Positions 8,252-62,817 of a stretch of DNA of 64,000 nt are shown here, piece after piece. The translations under genes were made by a program, and so were the position numbers. Under the pieces are notes generated by a model, which saw nothing but the letters and a program-made list of their open reading frames with translations, did not search any database and was not told where the DNA came from. Origin of the DNA: Diphasiastrum complanatum (Eukaryota > Streptophyta > Lycopodiopsida > Lycopodiales > Lycopodiaceae); contig CM055096.1 of assembly GCA_029204225.1 (NCBI GenBank), positions 42,590,901-42,654,900 on the forward strand. Reading direction: 5' to 3'. Within the stretch, counting starts at the first letter, position 1, and each line of letters opens with the position of its first letter.

Positions 8252-9370
8252 CATTGTACTTTCTCAGTCGGCTCCCATTGACCACAGTGTCGAGGATATT
8301 GCCTTGAAGGGTTTGGAGTTGTACATATCCAAAGGCAAAGATTTTTTTGATGACATAAGGTCCTTGGCCAGAAGATTTCAATTTGCCTTTGAAGGCTTTG
8401 GCCTGGTATAGTAGGACTTTATCTCCAACCTAGAAGTCTCTAAGTTTCAATGATCGATCATGCCATGCCTTTTGTCGTCATTTGTGGACTTGTTGAGCAT
8501 GGATGTTGATCCGTCATGTTTCATAGAGTTGCTCCAGATGGAATAACCTGTTTGCTAGATTCTGGTGAGTATCAAGCTCAAGGTTATAGGCCACTCGAAG
8601 GGAGGGGATATGGAATTCCACAAGCATAACGGCTTCTTGGCCATATGTTAGCTAGAAAGGGGTTAAGCATGTGGCTCGCTTCGGGGTGGTGCGATAAGCC
8701 CAGAGAGCAGAATGGAGTTTGAGTTCCCAATCAGATCGGCTGGATTCAATGGTTTTGGTGAGAATTCCACATAGGATTTTATTGGTGGATTCTGCCTGAC
8801 TATTGCATCGTGGATAGTATGGAAAACTTTTGCGATGTACCACAAATTTTTTTGAAAGTATATCTGCTATGACATAGTTAAGGAAATGTGTATCCCTATC
8901 ACTAATAAGCTCTAGAGGACATCCGAAACGAACAGTAACTTGTTCATAGAGAAATTTTGCGGTAGAATGAGCGTCAGCATTTTGAACAGCTCTTGCTTCA
9001 ACCCATTTGGTGCAATAGTCTGTAGCTACTATGATGTAACGAGATTGTGTATGTCGAGCAGTAGGACTAATAGGTCTGACATAATCAATGTCCCATTTCT
9101 GGAAAGCTTGATCAGTGGTTATAGGGTGCAAAGGCATGTAGTCTGTCTTTGAAAGTGTTTTGTGCATTGGCAGACATTGCAAACCTTAGTGTAATTGTGC
9201 GTATCCTTGAAGGGTGTTGGCCACCAAAACCCGACCAAGAGGATTTTCTTAGCAGTTGTTTCAGAAGAGAAATGGCCTACACCAATACCTTCATGAGTGA
9301 GAAAAATTACAGAGTTATTTCACCTTCAGTAAGACATCGTCGGATAACTCCATCTAACCGTTGCTTGTAG
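8252..9370 (-). pseudogene. G1 integrase, frameshifted
   Basis: The N-terminal zinc region is in 9370-9150 with broken frames. The core at 9182-8652 shows WDIDYV (first Asp), SDRDTHF (second Asp) and NSQAEST (Glu), so the DDE triad is visible. The C-terminal part (8651-8252) has a basic block matching AWHDR and a VLLY..KAFKGKLK stretch as in the relative at 60.7-60.9 kb, ending in a VVNGSRL-like motif. The enzyme would insert element cDNA into chromosomes. The frame breaks near 8652 and again in the C-terminal part. Confidence 0.8.
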
Positions 9371-9639
9371 AGTTGTCCTGCAATTAACGTATAAGGTTTA
9401 GTTTTGAGGACCAACGCACGTTGTTCAGGTTTAGAGAAGGAAGGATCCATCTGCCTCGAAGTTAAATATTTAGTAATTTTCTTAGCCCATACAGGTGTAG
9501 AGTCAACTTGGAAAAGGATTGCATTTGGTAAATCATCGTTGACGCCTTGATCAGGGGTAGGAAGGTTAGGGATTTGAGATAGATGGTCTACTAGAAAATG
9601 CTAAACTCCCTTACAAACCACAATCCTAAACTCAAATTC

Positions 9640-10869
9640 TCGCAGTAATAGGATCTATCTAGTAATACGGCCTGTGGTGCAAGTCTTGTTGATGAGATAC
9701 AACAATGCTTGATGATCAGTGAAGAACGCAAAAACTTTTCCTAGAAGTTAATGGCGAAACTTCTGAACCGCATATACCATGGCCAAGGCTTCACGTTCGA
9801 TAGTGGTATAATTCACTTCAGCAGATATCAATTGTCGACTAAGAAAATGGATTAGGTATCCTTTTTGAATTCTCCTGGTTGGGTGAGCATTGCTCCAATG
9901 GCATACTTGGATGCATCGGTATGCACATGGAATTCTTTAGAATAATCAGGAGCCCGGAGGATGGGTGCATTGGTAAGGGCTTCTTTGATTTGATTAAATG
10001 CAACGCGTTGTTCATCCGTCCATTTGGGCACCACAACTACTTTGCAAATTAAGCGTGCTTTGTTAGCGAAATAAAAAATAAAGCACCGATAGTAGTTGGC
10101 GTGGCCAAGGAAAGAGTAAACTTCACGTATCATATGCGGTTCTAATAGGTTTTGAATGATAAGGATCTTTTTAGGGTCAGTGGCAATGCCATTTTGTGAA
10201 ATAATATGTCCTAACACAATACCATGGGTTACCCAAATCTGACATTTTTTAGGATTAAGAGAGATGCCGAAGTGTTGACAATGGATTAAAAAAAATTCGA
10301 GACAGACAGATGGCGTGTTTCTTCGAAATGTGCTCCTAAATCGTCCAAGTAAACCTCTAAGGTATCGCCCATCTGCTGAGAAAAGGCCACTTGCATAACA
10401 TGTTGGAAGGTGCTAGGAGCATTACAGAGACCAAAGGGCATGACTTTCCAACAGAAGGTTTCCCATTCTTGGCAAAAGCGGTTTTATGTTGATCTTCTTC
10501 GGCGATTTGGATCATATTGTATCCGCTAAAGCCATCTAAGAAGGAGTAAGACTCATCTCCTATGATATTTTTCTAAGATGGATTCTTCGAAAGGTAATGG
10601 AAAATGATCACGTTCGGTGACGGCGTTAAGTTTCTTAAAGTCAACACAGATTCAAAGTTTTCCATTTTTCTTGGGAACAATGACAATTGGGGAGACCCAC
10701 TCAATGTGCTCGATTTCATAGATAATTCTGCATCTAAGAGGCGTTGTAATTCTTCTTTGATATTGGCCTTATAGATGGGATTGCATTTGTATAAACGACT
10801 AGCAATGGGCCTCGCACCCAGTTTAAGAGGGATACGATGCACAACTACTTGGGGTGAGACGCCTTTCAT
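9640..10869 (-). pseudogene. G1 reverse transcriptase and RNase H, frameshifted
   Basis: RT begins near 10869 with a PLKLGARPI..R block and a palm start, then frames break several times. The frame at 10217-9852 gives MLGHIISQNGI, a NYYR block and HVHTDASKYAIGAML, which are the RT thumb and the start of RNase H with its first catalytic Asp (TDAS). RNase H continues in other frames to about 9640. A YxDD catalytic box is not intact in any single frame. The enzyme would copy element RNA into DNA. Confidence 0.75.
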
Positions 10870-16627: not shown

Positions 16628-17036
16628 TTGAACTCCAATGCATTGTAAATCCATAAGCGCTTCAACATTGTCCCCACTCAGATCCCTGCAAACAACTTCC
16701 CAATCTCTCGACACATCTGAGTTTTTACAAACTGGACAGAGCCACATATGTGGCTACATCATTGTCCGTATCCATCGACTGATACACTTGCAAATCCGTT
16801 GGCTTCCTCATTGTTAGAAAACGCACTAACAGAGCTAAAATTCCTTCAACGCAAGCACACTCTCCTCCCGTCCCCTCACGCTCCTTCCGTATCCTCACGC
16901 TTCCATTCTCAACCGGAGCCCCTCAGTGAATCTCGATCGGAGTGCTCGTTCAGACCTCAACCCCCACGATCACTGAAATTTTGACCGACCTGAACAACCT
17001 CTTCAGAAAACACTCGATTGGACAGCCAGCCATTCC
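16628..17036 (+). other. G2 leader, non-coding
   Basis: A C/T-rich leader without a recognisable gene. Open frames at 16748-17403 have no stops mainly because of the repeats that follow. Confidence 0.4.
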
Positions 17037-17290
17037 CTTCAAATCTCAACCGACGCATTCCCATCAAATCTCAACCGACGCATTCCCATCAAATCTCAAC
17101 GGACGGCCTATGTCAAATCTCAACCGACGACCTGTGTCAAATCTCAACCGACGGTCGCCTGTGTCAAATCTCAACCGACGGTCGCTTGTGTCAAATCTCA
17201 ACCGATGGCCTGTGTCAACTCTCAACCGATGGTCTCTGTCAAATCTCAACCGACGGCCTGCTTCAAATCTCAACCGACGGACTCCTATTA
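17037..17290 (+). repeat. Minisatellite, 21-25 bp unit CAAATCTCAACCGACGG
   Basis: About eleven imperfect head-to-tail copies share a TCAAATCTCAACCGACG core with a variable GGTCGCCTGTG-like tail. All frames stay open and encode Asn-Leu-Asn-Arg-Arg or Ile-Ser-Thr-Asp-Gly repeats, but these follow from the repeat and are not evidence for a protein. The same core in inverted form occurs at 59300-59560 and 60270-60380. Confidence 0.9.
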
Positions 17291-17339
17291 ATTCTCGACC
17301 AAATCACTCTTTCAAATCTCGACCGGAGCAACCGGAGCC

Positions 17340-18151
17340 GCGAGTTTCATTTTTCAATACTTTTGAATTTTTCGATATTCATAATTTTTTTCGATACTTT
17401 TGATTTTTTCAATACTCCTTATTTTTTGATTGTCCTTATTTTTCGATACTCCTTATTTGTTTGATACTCCTTAATTTTTCGATACTACTCTATTTTTTGA
17501 TATTACTTATTTTTCGATACCCATTATTTTTTGATACTCCGTATTTTTTGATACTGTAGATTTTCGATACTTTTTTCAAGTCATATAAAATTTCGATCCA
17601 CAACTTTTTGATATACTTTTTTCGAGTCACTTACCTACTTTTTCGATACTTTTTTCGAGTCATATAAAATTTTGATCCACCATTTTTCGATATACTTTTT
17701 TCGAGTCACTTACCTACTTTTTTGATACTGTTTTTTTCGAGTCACCTAGATAATTTTCGGTACAATTTTTTTGAGTCACTAGCATAGATTTTTTAATTCA
17801 TTTTTTTGAGTCACCAACATAATTTTTTGGTACAATTTTTTTGAGCCTTCTATTTTTCAAGTTACCTGTTTTTTCGAGTCCTATATTTTTTCGATACACT
17901 TTTTTGAGTCACCAGCACAGTTCGATACACTTTTTTTGAGTCACTTACCTACTTTTTTGATACTTTTTTTGAGTCATATAAAATTTCGATCCACCATTTT
18001 TCGATATACTTTTTTCGAGTCACCTACATAATTTTTCGATACATGAGTCACCAGCATAATTTTTCGAAACAATTTTTTCGATTCACCAACACAGATTTTC
18101 GATACACTTTTTCGAGTCACCTACACAATTTTTTGATAATTTTTTTCGAGC
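17340..18151 (+). repeat. Minisatellite-like array of TTTTTTCGATAC / TTTTTTCGAGTCAC
   Basis: T-rich units alternating CGATAC and CGAGTCAC tails, 25-40 bp apart, continue for about 800 bp. The same array in the same orientation resumes at 31787-31920, right after the inverted repeat at 31780. It is therefore one array split by the 13.6 kb insertion. Confidence 0.85.
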
Positions 18152-18186
18152 CATTAGAGGAGTTCTCAATATCAAAAAGACCCTTT
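18152..18186 (+). repeat. Left terminal inverted repeat
   Basis: CATTAGAGGAGTTCTCAATA is the start. The 35-bp stretch is the inverse complement of 31746-31780 with three mismatches. Similarity stops abruptly outside it. Confidence 0.85.
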
Positions 18187-18617
18187 GTAAAAATACTTTT
18201 ATTTTTTTTCTTTAGTTTCGATTATCACCAGGCCCAATCAAAATGCACAGATTTGAAATCCACGTAACGTAGTTCAAATTAACTAAAAAATAAAAATGCA
18301 ATATAGAAAACTTTGAAATTTGTGTCCGGGCAGCATGGATGTATCCTATTGATTTCTTCTTCCTGTCTGACACGTGCTAATCTGTCCGATGTCAATACCT
18401 CAAGTTAAATTTACTTTACTATGCTAGTTAGTATCATGAAATTTTCTAACTATACTAGTTACAGTTACAGAAATATAGTATGTACAATTACATAAAATAT
18501 GGTATACGAAGTAACTGTGACTATGTTGGCATTCACATTAGATTAAATGTGATACAAAAAATTAAAAATAAGTAACATATCAGAGAGATTTTTGGCGCCC
18601 AAGCTTTGAAAATAGCA
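18187..18617. other. Subterminal region, no gene
   Basis: AT-rich with short repeats of ACTAGTTA and ATATAGTATG type at 18420-18500. It probably contains the promoter of gene A. No coding signal. Confidence 0.4.
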
Positions 18618-19976
18618 ATGGCAAGGAGACCCAGATCTACAATCGATTCTGTGATTCTTTGCAATGAGAAAGATGAAGTTGATAACTGGAAGCCAACAAA
18701 ATATACGAAGAACTCATGGGTATTGCTGCATCCATCGTCAAAGAGCAATTTTTGACAAAAGAAAAGAGCAAAAATGACTTACAAATCTTTTTGGAAAGCA
18801 AAAATTTTGGAGTTTAAGACTACCCCGGGAGGTCAATCGATATCAGAAGTCTTAGTGCAACATGTATATATGCATTCAGAAATCAAAGTACATGATATCA
18901 ATCCTCATGATCATAAAAACTGTAATTGTAAGTATATCAAAACATATGCACTCTACAGCAATCATAGGTAATTTCCTTTATTGATGCTCTTCAAAATTTT
19001 AAAATTGTTTTTTTCTTTCAGATTTATATCCATTATGCATAAGTGAATGGGAGCCCGCGCAATCACTTGCAGGAATATTAGACGTGATTCACTCTGATGT
19101 TGGAAAGCTGCAATACAGAGGAAGAAGTCCAAAGGAACTTGCAGATTGTGGTATCTATTTTTATGAATCTTTATATACGCCACAAACAGATGGAGGTTTT
19201 GGCAAGCTCGAAGCAATTCCATTGTCTAGTTTTCAAAGTGATGAGTGGCCTACTCCTGACAGCATTGTTTCTGAATCCTTGAGATGCAAGCTACTCATTG
19301 ATATTAGAAATGCTATGAAGATAAGCACAGGCTCGAAAATTGTTCGCCTAAGTTGGTTTATCTCATTGCATACATTTGTTGATTTTTTCTCGAGTGCTAG
19401 TGTTCGTAGGACACCAACTTTATTTGTTTGCAAGGATTTATCATATGAGACTTTGTCAGATCTCATGGATCAAGGCTGAGATAGGAAAACAAATAATGAC
19501 ATAGAATGTAGGATTAAAAAGTCCTCAATGATCTTTCGTTATCATATCGAAAAGCAAATGCTCAGTCTCACATTTAGCTACCAGAGATACAAGAAAATTG
19601 AAGGTACATGGCTAACACTAGATCAAGACTTTGAACTAAATGGTCACACAAACCGAATGTAGATAAGCATTATCTACAATGAGGAATATTTGACTATGGT
19701 TGAGGTGGAAGAGCACTGGAAGCTTGATTTTATCAAAACAGAGCTCATGCTATTACAAACCAATCTACCAACATATTTCAGATTTATCATCAACGGAAGA
19801 CTCGTAAGTATTTTATGTTTATTGCCATTTCAAAATAGAACAAAATAATAAAAACGTCATCATTTACAATTGCACATTCAATAATATTTGCCATGTCACA
19901 GATGCAAAAAAGACAAGAGCTGATAATGTGCTGCAAAGATGTACCTACAACAATCACCATTGTGGGAAAAAAATAG
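18618..19976 (+). pseudogene. Gene A of the TIR element, unknown, decayed
   Basis: The start is the ATG at 18618 (context AGCAATGGC). The first frame gives a basic start and ILCNEKDEVD. After a one-base shift near 18665 a helical stretch IYEELMGIAASIVKEQFLTK follows. A long frame from about 19024 to 19810 holds RSPKELADCGIYFYESLYT, RLSWFISLH, LTFSYQRYKKIEGTW and EEHWKLDFIKTEL, interrupted by TGA near 19477 and TAG near 19660. A GTAAGT donor follows near 19805 and a CACAG acceptor near 19902, then a short last exon (MQKRQELIMCCKD) to a stop near 19976. I do not recognise the family. The continuous phase across the stops shows it was once a real gene. It converges on gene B, 195 bp away. Confidence 0.55.
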
Positions 19977-20170
19977 TTTCAAATAAACTTTAGTAAAAAT
20001 CTATGTATACACTCTTTCATTCATTAATGAAAGCCCAAGTTGGACATCTGTACATGTATTTTGTGCTCCCAAATTCATAAACTGGAGCAACATTTGATAT
20101 ATCAATGTATATTATCCTATGAAGTCTATACATGTATTTTTGTTCTATGCTATCTATATTTTTTCTGATC
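19977..20170. other. Spacer between convergent genes A and B
   Basis: 3' untranslated and intergenic sequence; ATGTATATTTTTGTT-like runs could hold poly(A) signals for both genes. No gene. Confidence 0.4.
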
Positions 20171-21931
20171 TTAATTTAGTACAACTACATCATCCTTTGC
20201 ACCATCATCAATAACGGGAGGCTGAAGCCTTGCCCTAACCAGTATACTCAGGATAATTTTTTGTCTAAATCTGTACACCTGGCTTGATGTGTACTCAGGA
20301 AGTGTAAACTGCAAAATAGAACATTCATGTATTAGTAATGGCCAATAACATCACCAGAATAGAAAACTAATCATGATTTCAAAATAAGAATAAATAGAAT
20401 TTATTACCTTAGAAATATCAACATCTTGTTGAAGATTGAACCACTCAAAAAACAACTTGGCATTGTACAATGTGTACCACCCACAGCTGAATGAATCATT
20501 TTGCTGGGGTGACTGCAAAATAATTCAGCACACAAGAAGTCAATTATGAAACATAATGAATTAGATTGAAAATATTTCATTAGAATACTAATTTCAAAAT
20601 GCTATTAAGAAAGACAGAGTTTACCTCCAAGTTGACGATCTGCCAGTCCACGGAATGGGGAACGTCTGTAGGAATATATTTACTTAGATATGGAATGTAT
20701 ATATCTACATCCTTATGCGTATTTCTCGTTGAATTCATCTTGACACAAAAACATTTAATAATATTATTTACAAATCTCCTAATAGAGATCAGGTTTAAAC
20801 TCGAATGGTCACTGCAGAATAAGATTGAAATTTCTTTAGTTGCAATTCTGAGAGCTATTTTCATTGACAATGCCAATGTTAATGCATAAAATAGCAAGAA
20901 GCATTTAATATAACTTACTTTGTATGATAAGGTATGAGCAGATACTTTGTTGCTGGTGTGAATCCACTTGTCAGACACTGTGACAATGTGTCATTGTTCT
21001 CCTTGAAGGCCTGAAGCAGGAAGCTACTCTGCACCATCAACTCATTTGATAAATCTCTTGCAATGTCATATTGCAAGAGTGTAAGCCCGGACTCTATCAC
21101 AAGATCACTGATAGAAGCCCGTCTGTCTTTGAGATCCAGGAAATCTAGAACTCTTAAATTAATACTAAAATCAAGTTCATCTAGTTTAAAACAAAAAGGA
21201 GTACCAATTGTATCTATAGCATCCGATATGTCTTTTTCAAATTTAAGATAATCATCCGAATCTAAATATGTATAAAAATTGGGACGAGGAGGAGGTGGTG
21301 GATGTGTAGTATCTACAGCAATTATAGGAGTATCCAAAACAAAGGTAGCTATATTTACAGCATTATCAACAACAACATTATCTACAATGGATTCTGGGAT
21401 AGGCTTCACAGAATCTGAAGGGTTAGGCTTCACTTTCTTAGGAACACGCTTGGGGGCTGTCTTCTTCCTAGGACGCTTCGTAGGAAGATTAGTCCTATCT
21501 ACAGGAATTGGTCTAGGAGCAGCATGCTGAGATACATGTAACCTATAGTACCTATCCCTCATTCTCATCAGAAGCTGAAAATACTTGGGCATTATGGTAA
21601 CCCTCTTGGTATGGATGGCAAGCAAAAACGAATCCTCAAAAAAAAAGCTAATATAGTCTTCAACAGCCTCCTGAAGGCACTAAAGAGCACTCGATGTGAA
21701 TCTAACGTGCTGTCCGAGATCATTTCTTGTTATGTTCCGGACAACACGGTAGAATGGAGCTCTTGGGATCAACAGAGCTCTTGACCTCTGATACTTGCGT
21801 ATCTCAGAGAGCCACCTGCTGTGGTTGCGTGTTCTAGGTCTAGCAGGTGGTGTGATGGCAACCGCAGGAGATGAGGATGAGCCAGGAGATAAGAAGTCCC
21901 TCCTTGTTTGCTTTCTCCTATCCATGGGCAT
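20171..21931 (-). pseudogene. Gene B: CENH3-like histone H3 fold fused to Ulp1/C48 protease
   Basis: Four exons with GT-AG introns: 21931-20919, 20811-20625, 20512-20408 and 20308-20171. Together they are 1443 nt, 480 residues in one phase, broken only by TAG at codon 84 (21682-21680). Residues 1-38 form a basic tail. Residues 40-129 read as an H3 fold: LSEIRKYQRS (41-50) and LLIP.APF before the first core helix, LQEAVEDY (86-93), AIHTKRVTIMPK (105-116, almost the canonical H3 block) and a final helix. Loop 1 is one residue longer than in canonical H3, and LLIP replaces LLIRKLPF; both are CENH3 traits. A Lys/Arg/Pro linker (about 145-170) leads to the C-terminal domain: LLIPYHT at the exon 1 end, His340, NS at 364-365 where Ulp1 has DS, and PQQNDSFSCG (402-411) carrying Gln404 and Cys410. 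The Trp after the His is lost. The expected role would be nucleosome binding plus SUMO-type peptidase; activity is doubtful. Confidence 0.75.
21682..21931 (-). other. N-terminal half of the H3 histone fold in gene B, up to the TAG
   Basis: Tail plus the alpha-N and alpha-1 region. The order RWLSEIRKYQRSRALLIP, APFYRVVRNI, RFTSSAL follows H3 block by block. The TAG at codon 84 falls between two conserved H3 blocks, at a position where H3 relatives carry a variable residue, so a simple nonsense change explains it. The fold resumes in the same frame on its far side. Confidence 0.75.
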
Positions 21932-22758
21932 GTACTATGTGATAGCGGACTTGTGCGTGAAGGTTAGGATGAGAAGGGAGGGATGATAAAGAACTCGTAG
22001 AGGACCGCTATGTACGGACAGAATGTATGGTATATCGGACCTGTGCGAGCCGAATATTAGAGAGAACAATTAGATTTGAGGAAAGACGCACAAGTGCGAT
22101 ATGGGATGACACGTAGGCAGACATATCGGACCTATGCGCATGGAAGGTAGTAAGAGGAATTTCGATTGTGAAGGGCGCGCACAAATGTGATATGCGGAGC
22201 GAAAAAAAAAAGTGAAAAAAATTCATCGAAATTTGTGATTTTATATTGAAGTTTGCACGTGCGAAAGAACGTCCTGTCACACGTGTGGGCATTGTACGGA
22301 CAAATGCGAGAGCAACACGTGTCACCTTGTCACATTACACATGTGGGATTTCTACGATCGAATGTGAGAGCGACACGTGTTTCTGAGCAATCGAATGAAC
22401 ACGTGACACATGTCCAGGTGTCATTTCACATGTGTGCAGGTGTCATCTCACACGTGCCTGTGCCAGTTGTCCAATTGAAAGTAGACACGTGTCCTAAGTC
22501 TGGTGACCACACGTGCAAAATTTTAGTATAAATGGCACAAAAATTGATTAATTTTTTACCTTTTCAGTTCTCAAAATTCGCGACATATCGCTTTTGTGCG
22601 CGCTCATTGCTGTCCGTTTGCTTGCAACTATACCTACTCGCGCACAAGTGCAATATTTAGTATCTGTCTGCCGTACATATCCATCTTCTGCGCCATTTTG
22701 ATAGTTAGTTTGGGTTCAATTCTCCCACGCGCACAAGTGCAATATTCACGTTACTGCC
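21932..22758. promoter_or_regulatory. Divergent promoter of genes B and C with eight CACGTG boxes
   Basis: CACGTG (G-box/E-box, bound by plant bZIP and bHLH factors) occurs at 22256, 22280, 22316, 22374, 22400, 22451, 22486 and 22510, with three CACATGT variants between. A second motif, GCGCACAAGTGC followed by RATAT, recurs in both orientations near 21945, 22033, 22086, 22125, 22175, 22585, 22638 and 22729. A TATA-like AGTATAAATGGC lies near 22525 for the plus direction. B starts at 21931 and C at 22759, so the region serves both. Confidence 0.6.
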
Positions 22759-23140
22759 ATGGCCTCTTCCTCATCATCCTCACAAGAATCAGGCTTGAGT
22801 TCATTTCTGAGTGAATTTGGGATTATTGAAAACCTAGACTACTTCCACAGTCTATTCAGGCCATATCTACATGTTTTTAGGACTGCACAACCAGATTCTG
22901 ACATATTTTATGAACATAATGTTAGATTCAGAGATATATTTAGCAAGCATGTTTTCTCCATAGGTCCACTCTAGTACATGCATTATACTAATCTTGTTCA
23001 TTTCTTCCCAACTTTTAGACATAGACTGGATAGAATGTTCACCAAATTGTTTGATCTTTTCAAAAGTAGTTCAATGTGTCCGTATTGCAACAAGAAATGT
23101 CGATTGGTTGAATATCAGAGTGGTTTCGTACTTTTTCTGT

Positions 23141-23822
23141 TGTAAAAATTACAGGAAATAAGGATCCTAAAACACTTGAAATGATGAGGGAAACAATAGA
23201 TTATGATTTCATAAGATTAGCACAAGTTGAACCATCAAAATCCATCAAAAATCTATGCTTGAACCTCACTAAATGGCCCAAATCCTTGAAGAAGGCTTCA
23301 CACGTGTGAAAGTACGGCCTCCCACAGTCTGAGTACTGTACACCAGACCTACATTCAATCCTATAATCATTAGTAATCACAAGTACTCAAACAATTATGA
23401 ACATAGAGAGCAATTGCACCATTATGAGAGAAAAATCATGAAATTGCTTGATTGATTTTGGTGAGATATCATCACCTATATATACATGATCCATCATGGT
23501 TTTGGGCAGGTATGAGTAGCCCTAAACCTATCCCTAATGCTAATTTTGGTGGATCTTTCATCCCTACCAAGTTAGGGTTGGAATCTTGGAGATCCCTCAG
23601 CAATGCAAAAATTACCAAAAATAGCTCCTATTTTTTCTCCCTTGTATCTAAGCATAATTTGGACTCATTCCAAAGGTTCTAACACTTAGGTCTACTTGAG
23701 AACATCCTTATGAATGGAATCCTATGCTATTTGGCATGTGTGACAAGCCACATCATGACCATCTAACTATTTACAAGTCATATGACCAAAACTAGTCAAG
23801 CTAGAATTGTGGATTTTTAACA
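23141..23822 (-). mobile_element. C3 3' LTR
   Basis: TGTAAAAATTACAG at its left edge and TTTTTAACA at its right. It pairs with 28617-29298. The polypurine tract touches its inner edge. Confidence 0.95.
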
Positions 23823-23834
23823 CTCCTCCTCACT
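23823..23834 (-). other. C3 polypurine tract
   Basis: On the minus strand GTGAGGAGGAG abuts the 3' LTR start (TGTTAAAAATCC), the plus-strand primer of reverse transcription. Confidence 0.85.
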
Positions 23835-23836
23835 AT

Positions 23837-26800
23837 CTAGCTTGGTTCAGTCATTGCTTTACTAATCACTCCAAGTGATGATCTGAACTTCATAAAAGGT
23901 GTCTTTTGAAGTGGTTTAGTAAGTAGATCAGCTACACATTCATTTCTTGGAACATGCTCCAAAGCAATCTCCTTGGCTTGCACCATTTCTCTCACAAAGT
24001 GATGACATATCTCAATGTGCTTAGATCTTGCATGGAAGATTGGGTTAGATGCAAGGTGTTGGGCTGATATATTGTCATTGTAAATGATTGGTGCCTCCTC
24101 TGAATCCATGATCTTTAGTTCCACCAATAATCTCTTGATCCAAAGTACCTCCTTTGTAGTGGTTGTCAAAGCTTTGTACTCGGCCTCGGTTGAAGATAGA
24201 GATATAGTTTCTTGCTTTTTTGAAAGCCATGAAACCACACCTTCTCCTATGAAAGTTGAATAGGCACTTGTTGATTTCCTATCCCTCTTGTCCCCTGCAA
24301 AATCTGAATGACTAAATGCATGAAGGTTAATCACATCTCCTCTATATAGAATCCCAAAATCCAATGTACCCAAGATGTATCTTAGAATCCTCTTAGCCTT
24401 TTTCCAATGGATATTCAATGGCTTTTGCATGGATTGGCTCAACCTACATACACTAAAGCTAAGATCTGGTCTAGTTATAGTGATCCACATTAAGGAGCCT
24501 ATAAGTTGCCTAAACAAAGTGATGTCCATGAAGGATCTTTCATCATCTTCATTTGGCACTTTTACATCTTGCTCCATTGGTGTGTCAACACTTTTTCATA
24601 CTTCCATCTTAAACTTCTTCAAAAGACTTCGAGCATAGTTTACTTGACTTATAAAGATAAAATCAGACCCTCTAAGTACTTCTATGCCTAAGATGAAGTG
24701 AAGACACCCTAGATCTACCATCTTGAACTCTAAGGATAGATCTATCTTGATTTTTTCAATACCATCAACACTATTTCCACTAATGATGATGTCATCTACA
24801 TAAATGAGTAAAAGTACAATACCAACATCATCAAACTTAATGTAAAGAGTGGGATCATAATCACTTTGAACAAAAGAAAGTGAAATAAGATAGCAATGTA
24901 GTCTTGAATTCCAAGATCTCGAGGCTTGCTTCAAGCCATAGATGCTTCTTTGGAGATGGCATACTTTGTTCTCCATTCCATGCTTGATGAACCCTTGTGG
25001 CTGCTCCATATAGATATCCTCTTCCAAAAAACCATTCAAGAAAGCATTAGAGACATCCATTTCACATAGAATCCATCCAAAATGTGATGCAAGTGCAATA
25101 ATTAGTCTTATTGTGACCATCTTGGCCACGGGTGCAAAAGTTTCCTCATAGTCTATCCCTCTCTCTTGAGCATAACCTTTTGCAACTAATCTTGCTTTAT
25201 GTTTGTTAACACTCCCATTTGCATTCAACTTAAGCTTGAAGACCCACTTGCATCCTATTACATTCCTTTGAGGTCTCTCAACAAGCAACCAAGTTTCATT
25301 CTCAATCAAGGCATCATACTCATCCAACATAGCTTTATACCATTCTTTGGAGTTCAATGCATCTTCAACATTAGACGGTTCTTCAAAACTAGATAAAGCA
25401 TAAGAAGTGGATGAGATACCCTCAACTTGCTGTCCTTTTCCTTGATATGTGAGCCTTGATGGCTCCACTTTTGCCCTTGAAGATCTCCTTGGTGTGATAG
25501 GTGGGTTTGGAGCTTGCTCCTCCATGAGCTCCTCCTCAAAACCAAGATCTTGCTCCTCGGCCATCTTCTTCTTGATTGTTGGAGCACTTGAGCCTTCTTC
25601 AAGCATATGCATATGATGTTCATCAAAGATGACATCCCTTGAAACAACAAATTTGTTCAAGGATGGGAGATAGACTTTGTAGCCCTTGCTTGAGCTTGCA
25701 TATCCAAGCATGATCCCTCTTGTGGAAGATGGATCCTCCTTGGTTCTTGTTTCCAATGGCACATGCACATAACATATACACCCAAAAACTTTCAAGTGAT
25801 TAAGATTGGGTTTCTTTCCATACAACATCTCATAAGGAGTTTTGCCTTCAATTGCTTTGCAAGACACCCTATTCATCAAGTAGTTTGCACATACAAGAGA
25901 CTCACCCCAAAAGGATTTGGGCAAACAAGCATCTAATCTTAAAGCCTTAGAACATTCATATAATGTTCCATTCCTTTTTTCAGCAACTCCATTTTGTTGA
26001 GGAGTGTAAGGACAAGAAGTCTCTTTCTTGATCCCTTCCTCCTCACAAAAGGCCTTGAACTCATTGGAGATGAATTCTCCACCATTGTCACTTCTAAGAA
26101 TCTTGATGCTATGATTATGATGCTTTTCCACAAACAACTTGAACTTTACAAAAGTATCAAATACTTGAGACTTGAAGGAAAGTAAGAACACGCAACAATA
26201 TCTTGAGTAGTCATCAATGAAGGTTAAAAACATGGATGAACCTCCATTAGATTTGGTGCTAGCAATGTGCACATCCGAGTGTATGAGTTCAAGAGGATGA
26301 GATGACTTTGTGATGGAGTTAGGAAACACCTTCTTATGTGCCTTGGATAAGGCACAAGCTTCACAAACCTTGTCTTCCTTCCCAATAGACCTTGGTAGGC
26401 CTAAAGCATACTCCTCCTTGATCGTAGACTCCATGGAACCCGAGTTGACATGTCCAAGTCTTTTGTGCCATAAAGTAAAGGTAGATATCTTGCTCTTCTC
26501 GGCCAACATGACAACATTAGTATCCACAAATGCATCCAGCTTATAAAGTTTGCCAAGTCTAGTGCCCTTAGCCACTATCTTACCCTTCTTCTTGATGAAA
26601 CATTCATTTGAAGAAAAGTCAACATTGAAACCATTGTGTACCATTTGGCCAACACTTAGTAGATTCTTTGTTATTGTAGGAATGTACAAAACACCTTCTA
26701 TGTTGATCTTTTTGGAAGATCCTAAGCAAAGGGGAATGCTACCAACTCCTTCAATCTTACAAGCTTCATCATTTGCTGTATAGATAGACTTTATAGGTCC

Positions 26801-27805
26801 ATCATAAGATAAGAGAGAAGAGAAAAACTCCCTTTTACTAGTCATGTGTGAACTAGCACCCGAGTAGATCCACCAAGGATCTTCTCCTTTGAAGCTTGTT
26901 GAAGAAAATATGGACATCATGAGAGAGTCCTCATGTGAACTCTCCTTCTCCTCCTCTTTGCTCATGTTGGCTTGGCTTTGATCTTGCTTCCTCTTGAAGC
27001 ATTCCGAGGCATAATGCCCCATCTTGCTACAATAGTAGCACTTCACCTTTGATTTGTCCTTCTTGACTTTGGTGGTTGATGGAGATGCCTTTGGGGGTCC
27101 TTCTTGATCCTCAAGCTTTGTAGACTTCTTGAATGTTGATCCTTTGCCTTTGGACTTGCCTTTGTCTTTGGTAAAGAGAGCTTGGTCATCTCCACCTTGG
27201 ATGGAAAGCCTATCCATCCTCTCTTTCATTTGGCTCCTTCTTGATTCCTCGGCCATGAGTGTGCCTTGGAGTTCTTCAAGTATGGGTAGCTTACCCATAA
27301 TTGCATATCCCTGAACCAAATTATCAAATTCAAAGCCTAGTCCATTCAATATGAGTTGAACAAGCTCTTCATCCTTGATAGGGTCACCTATAAAGGCTAG
27401 CTCTTTGTTCAATTCCTTTACTCTTAGGACAAAAGTATGTGCACTCTCTCCTTTCTTTTGATAGCTTCTATAGATTTGATTCTTCAAAGCTAACATTCTA
27501 GTTTGGTTCTTGGATTCATAGACCTTTTGCAAAGTCTCCGAAGCATCTTGAGCTGAAGTGCAATCTCCTACCTCTCTTAAGAGTTCATTTGCAACATTCA
27601 TTTTTATGCAATGTAGTGCAACATTGCACCTCTTGATGTATTTGGCTTTTTCTTGAGGATGAATAGGTTCACCCTCCTTACCATTTACAATTTCCATCAG
27701 ATCTTGCATGATCATGATAGATTCCATTCTAACTTTCCATATGGAATAGTTAGTTTTGTTGAGCCTTTCATTAGTATCCAAAAGATATGCATTTATAGAT
27801 GCCAT
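23837..27805 (-). pseudogene. C3 copia polyprotein (gag-PR-IN-RT-RH), one internal stop
   Basis: A single frame of 1322 residues from the ATG at 27805 to the stop at 23837, broken only by TGA at codon 1070 (24598-24596). Gag residues 1-250; zinc knuckle CYYCSKMGHYASEC near 255-268; protease near 312 reads WIYSGASSHM where active copia has DSGAS, so the catalytic Asp is lost. Integrase has the H..H..CEAC zinc site and Asp, Asp, Glu in HSDV/FIDDYSR, RSDNGGEF and NGVAEKRN. RT has LYGLKQ-type SIYGLKQASRSW and the catalytic YVDD. RNase H has DFAGDKRDRKSTS and SSTEAEY. Length and order match Ty1-copia. The stop lies between RT and RNase H, at the usual C of the KxC/SVDTPM block. Two lesions (Asp to Tyr and TGA) mean it could move only with proteins from another copy. 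Confidence 0.95.
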
Positions 27806-28604
27806 CTAGTCTCCTAATCAAGGACTTGACACAAATGAAGGTTACTTCTATTGATTTGATTGAAGGTCTACCTTATCCCACTTCTTAGGGACCTGAAAAG
27901 ATCAGTAATAGACTTTCTATAAATATCTAAGAATGATCTCTAACAAAATCAAATCATAGAATACTAGAAACAATGCACTTGCTTAATTGAAGTAGACAAT
28001 ACTAGTAGAATTGCCCCTCTTTCTATAAAGAACATTAAAGCTTCCAAATGATCTGATCAAGAGTGAATTTCAGAAACCTAATATACTTCCAAAATCACTT
28101 GTAAAAGATCTAAATGGAACTTAATGAGGATGCAACACAATCTACTATCCAATCACAAGCAAAAAATGATCAAAATTGATGAAAAATTGATCTAATTTGG
28201 TGCATAAGTCAAGCAATGGTTGGACTGGACCTAAATCACTTTAGGAGGTGTCTACTACACCTTAGAACAGTCTTGAAGAGTCCCCAAAACTCTGATCTTC
28301 CGTCTCCTTGAATGCTAGAAAGCCTCCTCTATGAAATCACCTCCAAAACTTACTTAGAAATCAATGCTTGGAGCAAGCAAAACTTGCTATCTTGGTAATG
28401 TGAATTGAATTCAACTTTGCCTCTGGCTTTAGACACCTAAACAACTGCAAATGAAGTCACACAACACCAATCTCCAATGTATTTGACTCACTTTGAGTTC
28501 TAGAATCAATACTAGATGCTAAGATCCAATCTACACAAGATTTAGATCAAAAATTGTGATAAAATTGAATGAAAACCAAGGATTTAGCTCATTTCAGCCT
28601 TTAG
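27806..28604 (-). other. C3 untranslated leader
   Basis: 800 bp between primer site and gag ATG. No other gene; it would hold packaging signals. Confidence 0.7.
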
Positions 28605-28616
28605 GCTCTGATACCA
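28605..28616 (-). other. C3 primer-binding site
   Basis: GCTCTGATACCA on the plus strand is the complement of TGGTATCAGAGC and touches the 5' LTR. Confidence 0.95.
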
Positions 28617-29298
28617 TGTAAAAATTACAGCAAATAAGGATCCTAAAACACTTGAAATGATCAGGAAAACAATAGATTATGATTTCATAATATTAGCACA
28701 AGTTGAACCATCAAAATCCATCAAAAATCTATGCTTGAACCTCACTAAATGGCCCAAATCCTTGAAGAAGGCTTCACACGTGTGAAAGTACGGCCTCCCA
28801 CAGTCTGAGTACTGTACACCAGACCTACATTCAATCCTATAATCATTATTAATCACAAGTACTCAAACAATTATGAACATAGAGAGCAATTGCACCATTA
28901 TGAGAGAAAAATCATGAAATTGCTTGATTGATTTTGGTGAGATATCATCACCTATATATACATGATCCATCATGGTTTTGGGCAGGTATGAGTAGCCCTA
29001 AACCTATCCCTAATGATAATTTTGGTGGATCTTTCATCCCTACCAAGTTAGGGTTGGAATCTTGGAGATCCCTCAACAATGCAAAAATTACCAAAAATAG
29101 CTCCTATTTTTTCTCCCTTGTATCTAAGCATAATTTGGACTCATTCCAAAGGTACTAACACTTAGTTCTACTTGAGAACATCCTTATGAATGGAATCCTA
29201 TGCTATTTGGCACATGTGACAAGCCACATCATGACCATCTAACTATTTACAAGTCATATGACCAAAACTAGTCAAGCTAGAATTGTGAATTTTTAACA
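28617..29298 (-). mobile_element. C3 5' LTR
   Basis: 682 bp, nearly identical to 23141-23822. TATATATACATG near its inner third, read on either strand, is the best promoter candidate. Confidence 0.95.
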
Positions 29299-30094
29299 TT
29301 TGTTAGTTCAGATCCCAGATGATGATGAAGTTCCTGTTGCTGACCCTCCTTTTGCACTCTCCTTTGTTCAGTCAGCCATTAAGGATATCAGTCACTTTCT
29401 TATCGACACTCATGATAAAGAAAGTGACTTCATTGATATAAATACTGATGTTCTCCGAGATTCTTTCGTTGGCCAAAATACATCTGATGATGAATCCAAA
29501 TCTATGGAGGATTCGAAATGTCTTTTCAATTTGCTTGTGTATTATATTAATGACGATGTATATTTCACTACTGCTGATTTATGTAAATTTTTTGACTATC
29601 GTGAGGACGAGGTTCTATGTTTATTATCCGGCACAATTTTCGAATTCTTCGACTTTGTAGATTTTGAGACAGATGACCTTGTTGCTGGTATTGATTTTGA
29701 TGATGAGGAGGGTCTTATGATCGGTGAAGAATGCCTGAATAAGACTTTATCAAATATAGCTGAGGATGGGCAAGGCAGACCATCCGATGAAGAATTCACG
29801 GCATTTCAATCCCAGATGGGCTTCTCTTGTCCATCATTAATGCACTTCACTAATGATTCCACTTCACTACGTGGTCATTATATTGATCATCCTGATCTGG
29901 TTGTTGCTGATGATGAAGAATGTGTAAGTGTTTAATCTTCCTTGCATTTGAATGTTTTCAATCACTGAATGTGTTTTTGCTAACATATTTCCTATTACAG
30001 GATGCTCTCATAATAGATGATTTTGTTGTGAGACGAGGTGATTTCAGACAACACGCATCCTCATTCCAGAGGGATAGTGGACTGGGCCACTATC

Positions 30095-31254
30095 TTAGGC
30101 ATTTTCTGAAGAATGAGATCTGTATTGCTCATTCCAAGCTGAGCCCATACATTTCAATGTTTTCAAATCACCTGCTAAGTGCCATTCAACATTGAAGTCT
30201 CCAACTCCTGGAACATTGAGAAGTCCTCCATCCATATGGTCCTTGATAATCCTAGGATAAGATCTCCTTGAGAATATCCATGATAATATATTATGATCCT
30301 CTTTCAGCACCTATCCAAAGAATTAATCAGACTTAGTTTACAATGTATTAATACTATTCAATGAATGTAATGTAATAATGAGGCTAGTTACCTAAAACGC
30401 TGCCAACCACCATATATCATTTTCTGATTGGACACTGAATCTGAAATCTTCTTGGTTCTCTGTTTGTGATAGAGCACCATTCATGAGAGTTATACTAACC
30501 CTTTCCATCTTCTGCCCTTTCACAATTTCTGACTCATCTAACTTAAATACTATGATTATTTTGCCATTCACCTTTTTATAGGTTATATCATAGAATGTGA
30601 TGATGTATCTCAACAAGTAACTTAGATCAACAAATAAATTGTTTGATGAATTATAGAATATCGATTTTTTGAAAGCGTTTGAATATCCTTGCAACTTTGT
30701 CACTTTCGCTTCTTACTTTCAGCCTTCTTCTTTGCCAAATCCACATCATTCAGTGATTGTAAGTTTTCAATACAAATAGATTGTAAGACTGATTGCATTT
30801 GCTCTAGTTTTGATTTGATATTGATTGTTATCTTCTGTAATGATTCATTATTTTTTTTAAGTTGTTCATTTTTTTCTAACGTCTTTTGGAGATGACAATC
30901 TCTATTTTGACAATAAGAGGATATCTGAATTAACTCACCTTCTAAAAAGTGAACTTCATTCATATAAAGTTGTTTTTCATGGTTTTGCAATCTTTCACAA
31001 TATCCTAGTAATCCACTATGCCCATTGCATATCCATGTAACTAAATGAGTTATTGAAGGGAATGGGGGATGTGTCAAAGTGCTTGGATCTTGTGGATATA
31101 ATGTTCCATCTGTCCACAAATCCAAGTTTTTCTTTCCTTCTGTCCTATAACAAGAACAATCTTCGACAGATATTTGAACTCCTTTGCCTCCTCTTCTCTG
31201 CAAAGGTGCCAAATCAATAGGGATATCCACATGTAGATGATATAATGTCATCAT
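30095..31254 (-). pseudogene. Gene D of the TIR element, unknown, coiled coil
   Basis: The first frame starts at an ATG pair at 31254 and gives about 184 residues: a Cys/His-rich part (SVEDCSCYRTEG, WICNGHSGLLGYC) and a long coiled coil from about residue 115 (LQKTLEKNEQLKKNNESLQK), ending KKRK. A one-base overlap (ATGA at 30703) passes to a second frame (30703-30392) with YDITYKKVNGKIIIVFKLDE and an in-frame TAG exactly at a GTAACT donor. After an 81-bp intron (30311-30391) the phase continues at 30310 into RRSYPRIIKDHMDGG and FNVEWHLAGDLKTLKCMG, then degrades near 30150. The GDLKT block resembles acidic motifs of some transposase cores, but this is unverified. The 3' end looks cut off where it meets gene C. 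Confidence 0.5.
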
Positions 31255-31745
31255 AAAAAAAATAATAGAGTAATCAGTTGCATCAAAGTACTATGACCAG
31301 ATTCTATGAAGCAAAACAAAATACTCATCTTTGATTATATTATATACTATGTACGATCAATCCAATCTCCATGCTTGTATGCTTGATTCAAATTTGGAAA
31401 TGCCGCTCATTTTTTCATTCCAATAGGTAGTTGGCGCTCATATTTCCATTCTCGTGGAAGGAATGCATATGTAAACATTTTGCAATTTTTTCTGATTCGA
31501 ATTTAGGGATGGCGGTCATATTCTAGATCCAGTGAAAATATTGCCCTTTTCGTAACCAATGGAGGGAATATTTTTGAATTTAGTCAAGTTATACTGCAAA
31601 CTGTTAACAGTTCTTAACTGTGACTATAGACAATGTGGTTAGATCATTGGGAGTTGGAGAGGCCTTGGGAGTGGTGTGGGCAAGCAAATAAACAATATTG
31701 TTTTTTTTATTTTGATATTTTTGTATATCCTACATGGCATTTCTT
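31255..31745. other. Right subterminal region, no gene
   Basis: It would hold the promoter of gene D. TAACTGTGACTAT occurs here near 31615 and in the left subterminal region near 18515 in the same orientation. Otherwise nothing is recognised. Confidence 0.35.
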
Positions 31746-31780
31746 AAAGGGTCTTTTTAATATTGAAAACTCTTCTAATG
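31746..31780 (+). repeat. Right terminal inverted repeat
   Basis: Partner of 18152-18186, ending CTAATG. Minisatellite sequence resumes at once on its right. Confidence 0.85.
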
Positions 31781-38788: not shown

Positions 38789-39760
38789 ATGACCACTCCT
38801 CAGGGACCTGATATACCCCCGGAGAGAGGCTTCGATGAACTTGAAACAGAAGCCTTGGCTTATAGAAAAGGGAAGGAACGAATGGAATTGGAAGAATAGG
38901 AACAGTTCGCCGAAAAACTCGACGAACTGGTTACCAAGGAGCAGTTTTTCCAGTTGGTAACAGAAGTGGATGAACTGAAGTTGGCATTAGCCAATTTCAA
39001 GTCCAATGTGGACGATTCGTTCGCTGAACTCAAAAGCTTGATTTTGAGTTCCGTGAAAGGAAGCCTTCCCTTCACTTCTCAGTTATCCCCTTCTCCACTT
39101 CCATCAATTTCGGGTGAGACTTACGGTCTCACCCCAGTGTTTTTAAAGATTTAAAGCCTCCTACTTTTAATGGGGAAGATAAGGATAGAAATGCAGACAT
39201 CTAGTCATGGAAAACTTTTGAAGAACCTTTCCTAAGAGAATTTCTACCAGAAAATGAAGTTGATAGAGCTTGGGAAGCCTGGGAAAGAACAGTAATGGAC
39301 AAGTCCCTCATCCAATATATCTCGCAGTATCAAGAAGCAATTTTAAAGATTAAAAATATGGATGATTATCAGAAAATCAGGGGATTTGTCCGTGGCCTTA
39401 AAAATGAATATAAAGTAGAGGTCCAGAGAAACTCGCTTACTACCCTTGAGAAAGCTCTCAGATATGCTCAAATCTATGATGATTCAGTGGGTAGGAAGAG
39501 GGCGAGACAGCAGCCACTTTCTGAGCAGCCTCCTCAGAAAGACTTTCAATTTAAAAAGAAATTTTTAAAAGAAAGAATCAAGATAAATTTAAAGGTGAAG
39601 CTCCTCGGAAACGCCCTTCACTCATACAGCCCTCAAAACCAGATGATTTTGAGAAAGCCAAACAAGAACGTTTGTGCTTTGTGTGTATGGGCAAGGGACA
39701 CGCAATCAGACACTATCCCAAGGGGCCTTTCACTAAAAAAGATAAGAAACAAGTTCATCT
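38789..39760 (+). pseudogene. Chromovirus gag
   Basis: The ATG at 38789 (CAAGATGACC) opens a frame with TAG near 38897. A coiled-coil-like N part (LVTKEQFFQLVTEVDELKLA) leads to the capsid (WKTFEEPFLREFLPENE, KIRGFVRGLKNEYK). The knuckle near 39672 reads CFVCMGKGHAIRHYP, with the last Cys changed to Tyr. A TAG near 39203 and frameshifts near 39150 and 39640 also break it. Confidence 0.8.
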
Positions 39761-40391
39761 TGTTCAGACGGTATGTTTCCCCAGTGACTCGGCACCTTTC
39801 GAGATCAAAGTGTATCATGAAGATCATGAACACTGTTGCCAGCTAACCTTTGCAATGCTAGCGAGACCCTTCAGTTTTGGGCCGCATGACCTAGTACGTA
39901 TGCATGGGAAAGCGGGTAACCAATCAGTAAGAGTTATGGTTGATGATGGGGCAACCCATAATTTCATCAACTACACCCTGGTTAAAAAGCTTAAACTGCC
40001 AGAAGTACCTAGTCAGCATAGGTACATAGTTTCATTAGCCAAAGGTGAAGATAAAAAAATATGGGAAACTATGGTAAGTAATTTGAATCTTGGTATTCAT
40101 GGGTACCAAGATGAAATAAACTTTCAGATAATGCACCTGGATCGTACAGACATTGTTCTCGGGAGAGATTGGCTCTACAGTTTAGGACCTTCCCCCCACA
40201 GAAACTATCAGGAGAACACCCTCAGCTTTCAGCATAAAGGCCAAGAGATCCAGTTGCATGGGAAGCATGATGTTCCCAACAGTCCTATGGTCTGCAGTTC
40301 AGAGCTCTGTCAGCTAATCGGAGACGACGACCATCAGGTATTTTATGTGACTTTCAGTTTATTTCAGAAGTTTCTATTTCCAGTTCTTTAG
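39761..40391 (+). pseudogene. Chromovirus protease
   Basis: VMVDDGATHNFIN near 39934 is the active-site region (family DSGATHNF, so Asp is kept and Ser is Asp here), followed by VLGRDWLYSLGP near 40157. The frame from 39672 runs open through it to 40391, where it ends before RT. Confidence 0.8.
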
Positions 40392-41236
40392 AGCAGAAAA
40401 TCAGTAAATTAAAAACTTTGTTGTCTAAATTTAAAGATGTTTTTAGGTAGATCATGTAATAGACCTAGTACCAAGTACAACACCTGTTTCTAAACCTCCG
40501 TATCGGGTCAGCCGAACAGAGGATGAAGAAATAACTAGGTAGCTAATAGATTATCTTGAGAAAGGCCAAATTCAGACCAGTAGTTCACCATGGGCCTCAC
40601 CAGTCCTATTGGTGAAAAAGAAAGAGGGGTCTATGCGTCTTTGCGTAGATTATAGAGCCCTCAATAAAGACACAATTAAGAATAAATACCCTATGCCTTG
40701 GGCAGACGAGTTGTTTAACCAACTCGACGGGGCTAAGTTTTTCAGCAAAATAGACCTCATATCGAGATATCATTAAGTCCGTATAAAATCGGAAGATGTC
40801 TCAAAAATAGCTTTTAGGACTCGTTACGGTCATTATGAGTTTAAGGTGATGCCAGTTGGGCTCACAAATGCTCCAGCTTCCTTTATGACCTTGATGAACA
40901 GTGTTCTCAGACCATACTTGGGTAAGTTTGTAGTCGTATTCTTAGGTGACATCCTCATCTATAGCAAAATGAGGAAGGAGCATCTAAAACACCTCATAAA
41001 GGTGTTTCGACTGCTCAGAAAGCATAAGCTTTATGCTAAACAATCCAAGTGTGAATTTTTCGTTGAAGAAGTAGCATATATGGGTCACATTATCTCTTTA
41101 GATGGGATTAAGATGGACCCAAATAAGGTTAAAGTCATACTCAGTTGGCTGAGACCTCAGAATATTTTGGAACTTTCTTGGTTTGGCGGGATATTACAGA
41201 TGATTTGTCAAGGAATATGGTCAGATAGCAGTTCCC
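40392..41236 (+). pseudogene. Chromovirus reverse transcriptase
   Basis: [31 protein letters not shown] and [19 protein letters not shown] lead the palm. Stops lie at about 40444, 40540 and 40776. The catalytic box reads VVFLGDILIYS instead of FxDD, so one Asp is Gly. The thumb YMGHIISLDGI follows, and then the frame shifts near 41165. Confidence 0.85.
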
Positions 41237-41560
41237 ATGACAAATCTTCTTAAGGGGAAGGGAAAGGAGTTCATTTGGGAGTCCGTACAGCAGGAGAGCT
41301 TTGATGCTCTCGAAACAGCCTTAGCTACAGCACCAGTTTTAAAGGTCGTCGAATCCAATCAGCCATTTGTGGTCAAAACAGATGCTAGCGACTTTGCAGT
41401 AGGTGTTGTGCTAACTCAGGGTGGACGACCAGTTGCGTTCGAGAGTAAAAAACTCAAGCCAGATCAGACTAGGTACAGGGCCTATGAAAAGGAACTATTT
41501 TCTATAGTTCATGCCCTTAAGACTTGGAGGCATTATTTGCCACTTCCCGGGGCTGGTGCT
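41237..41560 (+). pseudogene. Chromovirus RNase H, partly deleted
   Basis: VKTDASDFAVGVVLTQ (first Asp), FESKKLKPDQTRY and YEKELFSIVHALKTWRHYL are typical. The usual distal part after RHYL is missing and an acidic stretch (SVEDDDEYEYTSSDDVD) follows directly, so the C-terminal third is deleted. Confidence 0.8.
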
Positions 41561-61930: not shown

Positions 61931-61941
61931 ATTTCCTCAGC

Positions 61942-62640: not shown

Positions 62641-62817
62641 TGTGGGAATATATTAGTTTAATGATAGGCCCACACATCCATATGCTCAAAACATACAAAT
62701 CACAAGCAAAAGATGCATAAATCTCTTTACAAAATAGCCACTAAAAACTAATGACTAGTCTCTACAACAAAAGCAATTAAAAGAAGTGAAAAACAATAAA
62801 TGTTGGCAAGCATTTGG
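62641..62817 (-). other. G5 leader next to internal deletion
   Basis: No gene; gag and the 5' half of pol should lie here and are gone. Confidence 0.4.

Follow-up and report, generated by a model that had tools for sequence, protein, structure and literature searches.

A histone H3 fold fused to a C48 (Ulp1/SENP-type) protease encoded by a clubmoss DNA transposon

We have analyzed a window of 64,000 bp (C5:42590901-42654900) of the 1.74 Gb genome of the clubmoss Diphasiastrum complanatum. A whole DNA transposon, one copy of the repeat group that we call family A, occupies positions 18152..31780 of this window and is bordered by paired terminal inverted repeats. Its left boundary (18151/18152) is common to the copies L034, L035 and L037 and to the ends of L040 and L041. 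The left terminal repeat (35 bp, 18152..18186, plus strand) matches exactly the one that L040 and L041 carry at their two ends (CATTAGAGGAGTTCTCAATATCAAAAAGACCCTTT), and the right terminal repeat (31746..31780, minus strand) differs from its left partner by three mismatches. The family A element is a DNA transposon of ~9.4 kb with 35-bp terminal inverted repeats, as can be seen in the intact-ended copies L040 (9451 bp) and L041 (9371 bp), where the repeat is free of mismatches at both ends. When the genome was searched for it, allowing up to three mismatches, 2378 matches (1154 + 1224) were found, vs. none for the reversed control.

The element carries four genes. Gene 1 (approximately 18618..19851, plus strand), recognized from its open reading frames, is broken in this copy and has relatives in two of the other element families described below, B (L048, 34–36% identity in the alignment) and C (L039, 48%). 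The pieces of gene 1 that we scanned gave no Pfam match above the cut-off, and the structure model obtained for it was very poor (pLDDT 36). Gene 2, on the minus strand, is the subject of this work. Gene 3, on the plus strand, contains the motif CPYCNKKC in its first part (22759..23140), is cut there by a Ty1/copia retrotransposon (23141..29298, minus strand, with 682-bp LTRs that are 98.2% identical and gag-pol ORFs) and resumes at 29301-30147. Gene 4 (30146..31290, minus strand) is a remnant with the N-terminal side of a transposase; compared with L035 and L038 together, it lacks ~1.4 kb at its 3' side and a further ~0.5 kb higher up. The repeat family, the terminal inverted repeats and the transposase gene of its own bear out the suggestion of the initial annotation of this DNA that gene 2 codes for a mobile-element protein. 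Rfam gave no match anywhere in the 64-kb window, and the NCBIfam search provided nothing of use.

Gene 2 (21931-20171, minus strand) has four exons, 21931-20919 (1013 nt), 20811-20625 (187 nt), 20512-20408 (105 nt) and 20308-20171 (138 nt), and the three introns in between are all of the GT..AG type. As had been claimed, the exons join in one phase (1443 nt in total, 480 residues with an X at an internal stop). The initial annotation had read an H3 fold in the N-terminal part and the active-site regions of C48 peptidases in the C-terminal part, and both were recovered above the curated Pfam cut-offs in the joined protein: Histone (PF00125) at residues 23-125 with an E-value of 6.3e-28, and Peptidase_C48 (PF02902) at residues 327-452 with 1.2e-6. 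The top PDB sequence match was a plant H3.1 (3.3e-21). Exon 1, counted from its second ATG (20919..21925), codes for an H3-like tail with K4, the histone fold, a Lys/Pro-rich linker and the N-terminal part of the C48 domain. Exon 2 (20625..20811) holds the catalytic His (20807-20805) and the probable catalytic Asn (20735-20733), exon 3 (20408..20512) the Gln (20503-20501) and the Cys (20485-20483), and exon 4 (20171..20308) the C-terminus and a TAA stop codon (20173-20171). There can be little doubt that an H3-type tail, an H3 fold, a basic, Pro-rich linker and a C48 (Ulp1/SENP) protease domain lie on one chain.

The natural start of gene 2 is probably the second ATG (21925, MDRRKQT...), because eight of nine other family A copies read at this point lack the ATG two codons upstream, L035 being the exception. 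The gene had been described as having a single TAG; there is indeed one TAG in frame, but the gene ends with the TAA given above. The TAG (21680..21682, minus strand) lies inside the histone domain, at a site where 21 of 24 aligned copies have a Gln codon and three have a stop. CAG to TAG is the change that would be expected from a methylated plant cytosine. Besides, a Ser (20804-20802) replaces the Trp of the catalytic HW motif, a site that is W in 19 copies, a stop in four and S in one. The window copy of gene 2 is dead. Since many copies are broken and the amber codon arose at a CAG site, as expected of methylated, silenced copies, family A may be largely silenced at present.

A search of the genome with the 480-residue protein gave at least 89 matches, the window included, with 72–100% identity over 309–425 residues (89 of 14,138 first-look candidates were scored, so that the counts are lower bounds). 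The fact that all 89 scored places match over such lengths excludes chance. Eleven of the 89 were listed as free of stops, and some of the listed stops fall just beyond exon 1; L053 and L055 were listed with a stop and yet are open once spliced. With the Pfam Histone profile at least 153 matches were detected in the genome (150 of 6325 candidates scored). Those listed comprise 13 canonical H3 (about 164–165 bits) and, for the rest, H3-like matches of 83–110 bits, of which 17 were read as loci (L017-L033) in addition to the window. The Peptidase_C48 profile found at least three matches among those listed (150 of 520 candidates scored), probably so few because the domain is split over exons.

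We have aligned 24 family A copies: the window, L026, L034-L037 (stop-free, with flanks) and 18 more from the 89 matches, picked so as to cover the range of identities and to have stop-free copies among them, i.e., the sample is not random. Seven of them (L034, L035, L036, L053, L055, L064 and L067) are fully open through the four exons with GT..AG introns, in agreement with the initial reading of one spliced gene. The catalytic Cys is lost in two of these open copies, L036 and L055. L034 and L035 matched Histone with 8e-22 and 1e-25 and Peptidase_C48 with 3e-9 and 5e-10, or, in bits for the latter profile, 37.5 and 40 vs. 29 for the window (cut-off 20.7). L040 and L041 are complete elements but their fusion genes are broken, and among the copies read none was intact in both ends and gene.

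Nucleotide change ratios were estimated for 15 of the 24 copies, nine being left out for frame breaks, changes in exon length or truncation. Over the 105 pairs dN/dS was 0.28 (histone), 0.32 and 0.30 (the two C48 parts), 0.36 (tail) and 0.77 (linker). For the 40 pairs with dS > 0.2 we obtained 0.17 (histone), 0.32 and 0.25 (C48 parts), 0.30 (tail) and 0.64 (linker), with 5–95% ranges from resampled codons of 0.11–0.27 for the histone and 0.44–1.01 for the linker. An earlier run on six copies gave the same pattern. These ratios indicate that the histone and C48 domains have been under purifying selection during the spread of the element. The active lineage was probably under stronger constraint than the measured values imply, because averages over copies include the decay that follows insertion.

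Four element families (A–D) retain an H3-like gene. In e36 (L036+L039) a second, divergent element, which we call family C, adjoins a family A element; its transposase is ~68% identical to that of family A at the DNA level where aligned, and it carries relatives of gene 1 and gene 3 as well as an H3-C48 gene whose parts follow each other as in family A. The family C fusion protein, pieced together with X at frame breaks, aligns end-to-end with the L035 protein (29% identity, 478 columns, E 6e-54). The presence of the same fusion at this level of identity is most simply explained if the fusion predates the split between A and C. A hypothetical protein of Diphasiastrum complanatum (O6H91_14G014700, P0086) belongs to family C. 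In family B (L017-L020, L022-L025, L028, L029, L032 and L033) a long Gln/Pro-rich protein has the H3 fold at its C-terminal end. The ORFs checked 3' of the histone ORF in L048 contained no C48. Family D is a single broken locus (L021).

The histone tails are peculiar. Family A proteins start with MDRRKQTRRD vs. MARTKQTARK in H3. K4 is kept in 22 of the 24 copies, and position 9 is D in 20, N in two, G in one and missing in one, never K. In 21 copies K4 is the sole lysine before the fold (the other three have K4 and K36, K28 only, or none), so that the canonical tail lysines K9, K14, K18, K23, K27 and K36 are gone in 21/24. A tail was found in ten family B loci, eight of them with D and two with G at position 9; family C tails read MARTKQTARL or MARTKETARL, with L at position 9, and that of family D MARTKQTARE, in frame with the fold with stops in between. 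The 13 canonical H3 genes that we read (L004-L016) all have K9; its absence from the element histones holds for the copies read.

Within the fold we have scored positions between R49 and R129 that we take to be at the H4 interface or in contact with DNA in H3. Family A keeps R83 (21/24), H113 (23/24), K115 (24/24), R116 (23/24), T118 (24/24), D123 (22/24) and R129 (24/24). R49 is altered to Ser or Phe in all 24 copies and R63 to Pro in 22, and R69 (16/24) and R72 (14/24) are partly kept. The changes in many copies at these last four contact positions count against the nucleosome mechanism proposed below.

The protease part was compared with known structures. The C48 profile matched in the PDB the Ulp1-like SUMO protease 6dg4 (1.4e-5), SENP2, ULP1 and SENP8, with E-values from 1.4e-5 to 0.013. 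The SENP2 alignment begins in the part encoded by exon 1, which indicates that the C48 domain starts in the histone exon. The clubmoss domain shares the HW, Gln and Cys of ULP1/SENP proteases and differs from them in that Asn replaces the probable catalytic Asp and that a histone is present at the N-terminus. The active-site His is present in 24/24 copies, the Gln in 23/23 with a codon there and the Cys in 19/23. At the site where the Asp is likely to belong 23/24 copies have Asn, with an alignment that is ambiguous at that position. Family C has the same four residues (His, Asn, Gln, Cys), and its piece scanned alone gave 15.6 bits with Peptidase_C48, below the 20.7 cut-off. An H-N-C triad occurs in some related proteases. 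Judging from these residues, protease activity is possible, although the replacement of Asp by Asn makes it uncertain.

Between the histone-protease gene and gene 3 there is a divergent promoter region (21932..22760) with eight copies of GCACAAGTGCGATAT (up to three mismatches, in both orientations), plus ACACGTGT repeats. The mean for shuffled sequences was 0.01, and L034 has eight copies and L041 nine. Elsewhere in the element (6260 bp in 18152-21931 plus 29301-31780, the copia insertion not being counted) GCACAAGTGCGATAT was found zero times, and likewise zero times in the 50,371 bp of the window that lie beyond the element. Family C also has an array in the corresponding region, though of another motif, the best 15-mer of which is present in five copies vs. 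one or two for the best in shuffled sequences. In two family B loci no motif array rose above the shuffles; a family that has the histone, with no C48 seen and no array in these loci, speaks against the mechanism.

This arrangement resembles that of the VANDAL/KIU elements, likewise multigene DNA transposons with one gene that carries a C48/Ulp1 domain and with motif arrays in non-coding DNA. The VANC protein, an anti-silencing factor that the element itself encodes, binds short motifs repeated in the non-coding DNA of VANDAL and causes DNA methylation to be lost there (PMC5735166), and some VANC genes carry a Ulp1 domain of unknown role according to a review (PMC13317346). There are also differences. 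The VANDAL/KIU elements are Mutator-like whereas the clubmoss transposase, judging from a relative, is of the RAG1/Transib fold type, and the partner of the clubmoss C48 is a histone H3 fold, unlike in VANDAL/KIU (Kaonashi genes with Ulp1). Neither a Mutator Pfam domain nor the VANC domains DUF1985 and DUF287 (PMC5735166) appeared in the gene pieces scanned. Escape from silencing has been shown for VANC and is here proposed for the clubmoss element.

Regarding the class of the transposase, the predicted structure of a relative of gene 4 matched in a fold search RAG1/Transib, with an RNase-H-like fold. On the basis of this model, the gene 4 relatives fold like RAG1/Transib, at an identity of ~12%. 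Pfam RAG1 was not found above the cut-off in the relatives scanned: of eight, P0079 matched PF12940 with 16.8 bits, below the 25-bit cut-off, and the other seven were unmatched. When the transposase alignment was used for a PDB sequence-profile search, the one match was at chance level (E 0.85), and only the search by fold was informative. Transib elements end in CACAGTG, and RAG1/Transib target-site duplications are of 5 bp. The clubmoss elements begin instead with CATTAG. We examined five pairs of family A ends (the window, L040, L041, L042/L043 and L044/L045; L046/L047 was left out because two inverted copies had each contributed the same end), and a 5-bp duplication was seen in 0/5 and a 3-bp match in one (L040). 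An affinity of the transposase with CACTA/CMC is possible; we know of no solved structure of a CACTA/CMC transposase. Relatives of the transposase occur in ferns and in the alga Klebsormidium. A search of the open-access literature for RAG1/Transib-like transposases in plants or algae gave nothing plainly on them among the matches listed.

Transposon silencing in plants acts through the methylation of histone H3, with H3K9me2 and H3K27me3 as the marks. We propose that the histone-protease protein may be an anti-silencing factor, a reading to which we assign a probability of about 0.4 on the strength of sequence features and of the analogy with VANC. It is the one that fits best because an H3 devoid of the K9 and K27 methylation sites, which keeps the K4 region and most of the fold contacts, comes together with a SUMO-type protease and a promoter motif array. 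The fusion protein would pair with H4 and enter, or dock on, nucleosomes at the element copies; the initial annotation had also supposed that it docks on or replaces a nucleosome and strips SUMO locally. Its tail, without K9, K27 or (in most copies) other lysines, could not receive H3K9me2 or H3K27me3, K4 staying available. At the same place the C48 part would take SUMO, or a SUMO-like modifier, off proteins of silencing or of chromatin, and targeting might take place via the promoter motif array, to which the fusion or a different element protein would bind in the way of VANC in VANDAL. More tentative than the anti-silencing role itself is the complete picture, in which elements with a transposase of the RAG1/Transib fold would encode a core H3, fused in two families to a SUMO-type protease, and the tail stripped of lysines with K4 kept would produce "unsilenceable" nucleosomes, together with SUMO stripping, at the element's own copies. 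The data suggest that some transposons manipulate the packaging of host DNA with a histone of their own.

Other readings of the fusion have to be considered. The histone could be a tether that docks on nucleosomes, H4 or chaperones and brings the transposase to chromatin that is open (K4-type), with the protease serving only to release or mature the complex. The fold with most of its H4-interface residues and the presence of a transposase gene in the element agree with this, but the promoter motif array and the loss of K9 and K27 would be superfluous, and we consider it unlikely. A soluble decoy that occupies H3K4 readers, demethylases or H3-H4 chaperones with its tail start and H3 fold, and never enters nucleosomes, seems less probable again; most family B loci retain the ARTKQTAR start, and so do P0086 (family C) and L021 (family D), whereas in family A (MDRRKQTRR) R2, K4-Q5-T6 and R8 are retained with A1, T3 and A7 replaced, and a decoy would have no need of R83, R116 and T118, presumably DNA contacts in H3, which are kept. 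That the gene is a captured host fragment without function for the element might be thought from the stops in many copies and the dead copy in the window. However, the dN/dS of 0.17–0.32 in the domains vs. 0.64 in the linker, the same fusion in family C at 29% identity and the retention of an H3-like gene in four families make a mere passenger very improbable. Hardly credible at all is a misreading of two adjacent genes as one, given that seven open copies have the histone and the N-terminal part of C48 in one uninterrupted exon and GT..AG at the three introns, and that the order of parts is the same in family C.

The initial annotation had called the histone CENH3-like, and a captured CENH3 that targets or disturbs centromeres would be a further explanation. 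Plant CENH3 has the LLIPxAPF motif and tails that start with ARTK, for which reason a CENH3 ancestor is possible. LLIPRAPF is present in family A, and family C has RW in loop 1. The one extra residue of loop 1 relative to host H3 was correctly noted for family A; the length of the loop varies by family, with +1 in A, 0 in B, +4 in C and 0 in D, i.e., it is longer in A and C and not in B and D. The label itself is not supported. In a low-resolution tree of 14 rows and 97 columns, for which the CENH3 rows were entered by hand, the element histones fall into a single group (85/93), separate from the H3 and the CENH3 rows; the best PDB match is H3.1, and we have rejected CENH3 as a name for them. 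H3-like matches are spread, among those listed, over all of C1-C23, which, at the level of whole chromosomes, also argues against centromere targeting, and we find a captured CENH3 improbable. The element histones, plant CENH3 and H3.1/H3.3 are alike in the H3 fold, most H4-interface residues and an ARTK-type tail start, and the element histones differ from both in the C48 fusion, in a tail nearly free of lysines except K4 and in being encoded by a repeat family. CENH3 tails show lysine loss too, so that the loss of tail lysines need not be an adaptation against silencing.

No transposon-encoded histone, and no protein with both H3 and C48 domains, is described in the open-access literature among the matches listed. 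A profile search of the protein database gave 711 matches, and none of the best 120 of the 711 had PF02902. The first protein search had found three H3 proteins with long N-terminal extensions. Two of them (P0001 and P0003) match the histone part, 20% of the query length, with 46–48% identity, and like family B they have an H3 tail start, a long insert and then the H3 fold. They differ from the element histones in that K9 is kept and C48 is not matched, and are unrelated H3 proteins.

If the anti-silencing reading is true, an altered H3 supplied by the element would attack plant silencing at its very substrate, a strategy absent from the sections on anti-silencing of PMC5735166 and PMC13317346. 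The element histones are in any case a natural set of H3 variants without K9 and K27. Finally, RAG1-fold transposases with relatives in ferns and Klebsormidium bear on the question of where RAG-like transposases occur.

We have found histone H3-like genes in two further element families of the Diphasiastrum complanatum genome. Family B, a second abundant one, codes for a protein with a MARTKQTARD... start, followed by a long Gln/Pro-rich insert and then a C-terminal H3 fold. No C48 domain was seen in this family, which comprises locus L018 together with L017, L019, L020, L022-L025, L028, L029, L032 and L033. In the third family, C (locus L039, 5228-7200, and the protein P0086), the H3 fold has a loop 1 longer by four residues and is fused to C48 in the same way as in family A. 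One intact histone part of family C carries the annotation O6H91_14G014700 (P0086). The family C element at L039 adjoins a related element of family A, L036, perhaps as a nested insertion; the pair L036/L039 lies at C6:36347000-36364999.

Both fusion-bearing families, A and C, have short, family-specific motif arrays in their divergent promoters. That of family A is built on the GCACAAGTGCGATAT motif (window 21932-22760; copies L034, 3700-4516, and L041, 3820-4650) and that of family C on a CACGTGC-type motif (L039, 4420-5227). These arrays resemble those targeted by VANC, the anti-silencing protein of VANDAL transposons.

The RAG1/Transib-fold transposase has database relatives (P0004-P0079) that include proteins from Klebsormidium and ferns. 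Two proteins from ENA records, P0001 and P0003, combine an H3 fold with an H3 tail start that retains K9, and are longer by about 250 residues.

Within the window, gene 3 of the transposon, divergent from the fusion gene, is interrupted by a Ty1/copia element (23141-29298), probably young since its 682-bp LTRs are 98.2% identical. Tandem-like arrays directly adjoin the transposon left end, of CAAATCTCAACCGACG units (17012-17310) and then TTTTTCGATAC units (17368-18157). Reading frames judged by eye to be retrotransposon reverse transcriptase/integrase-like lie at 8652-10412, 39205-43094, 48699-49442 and 60861-62652.
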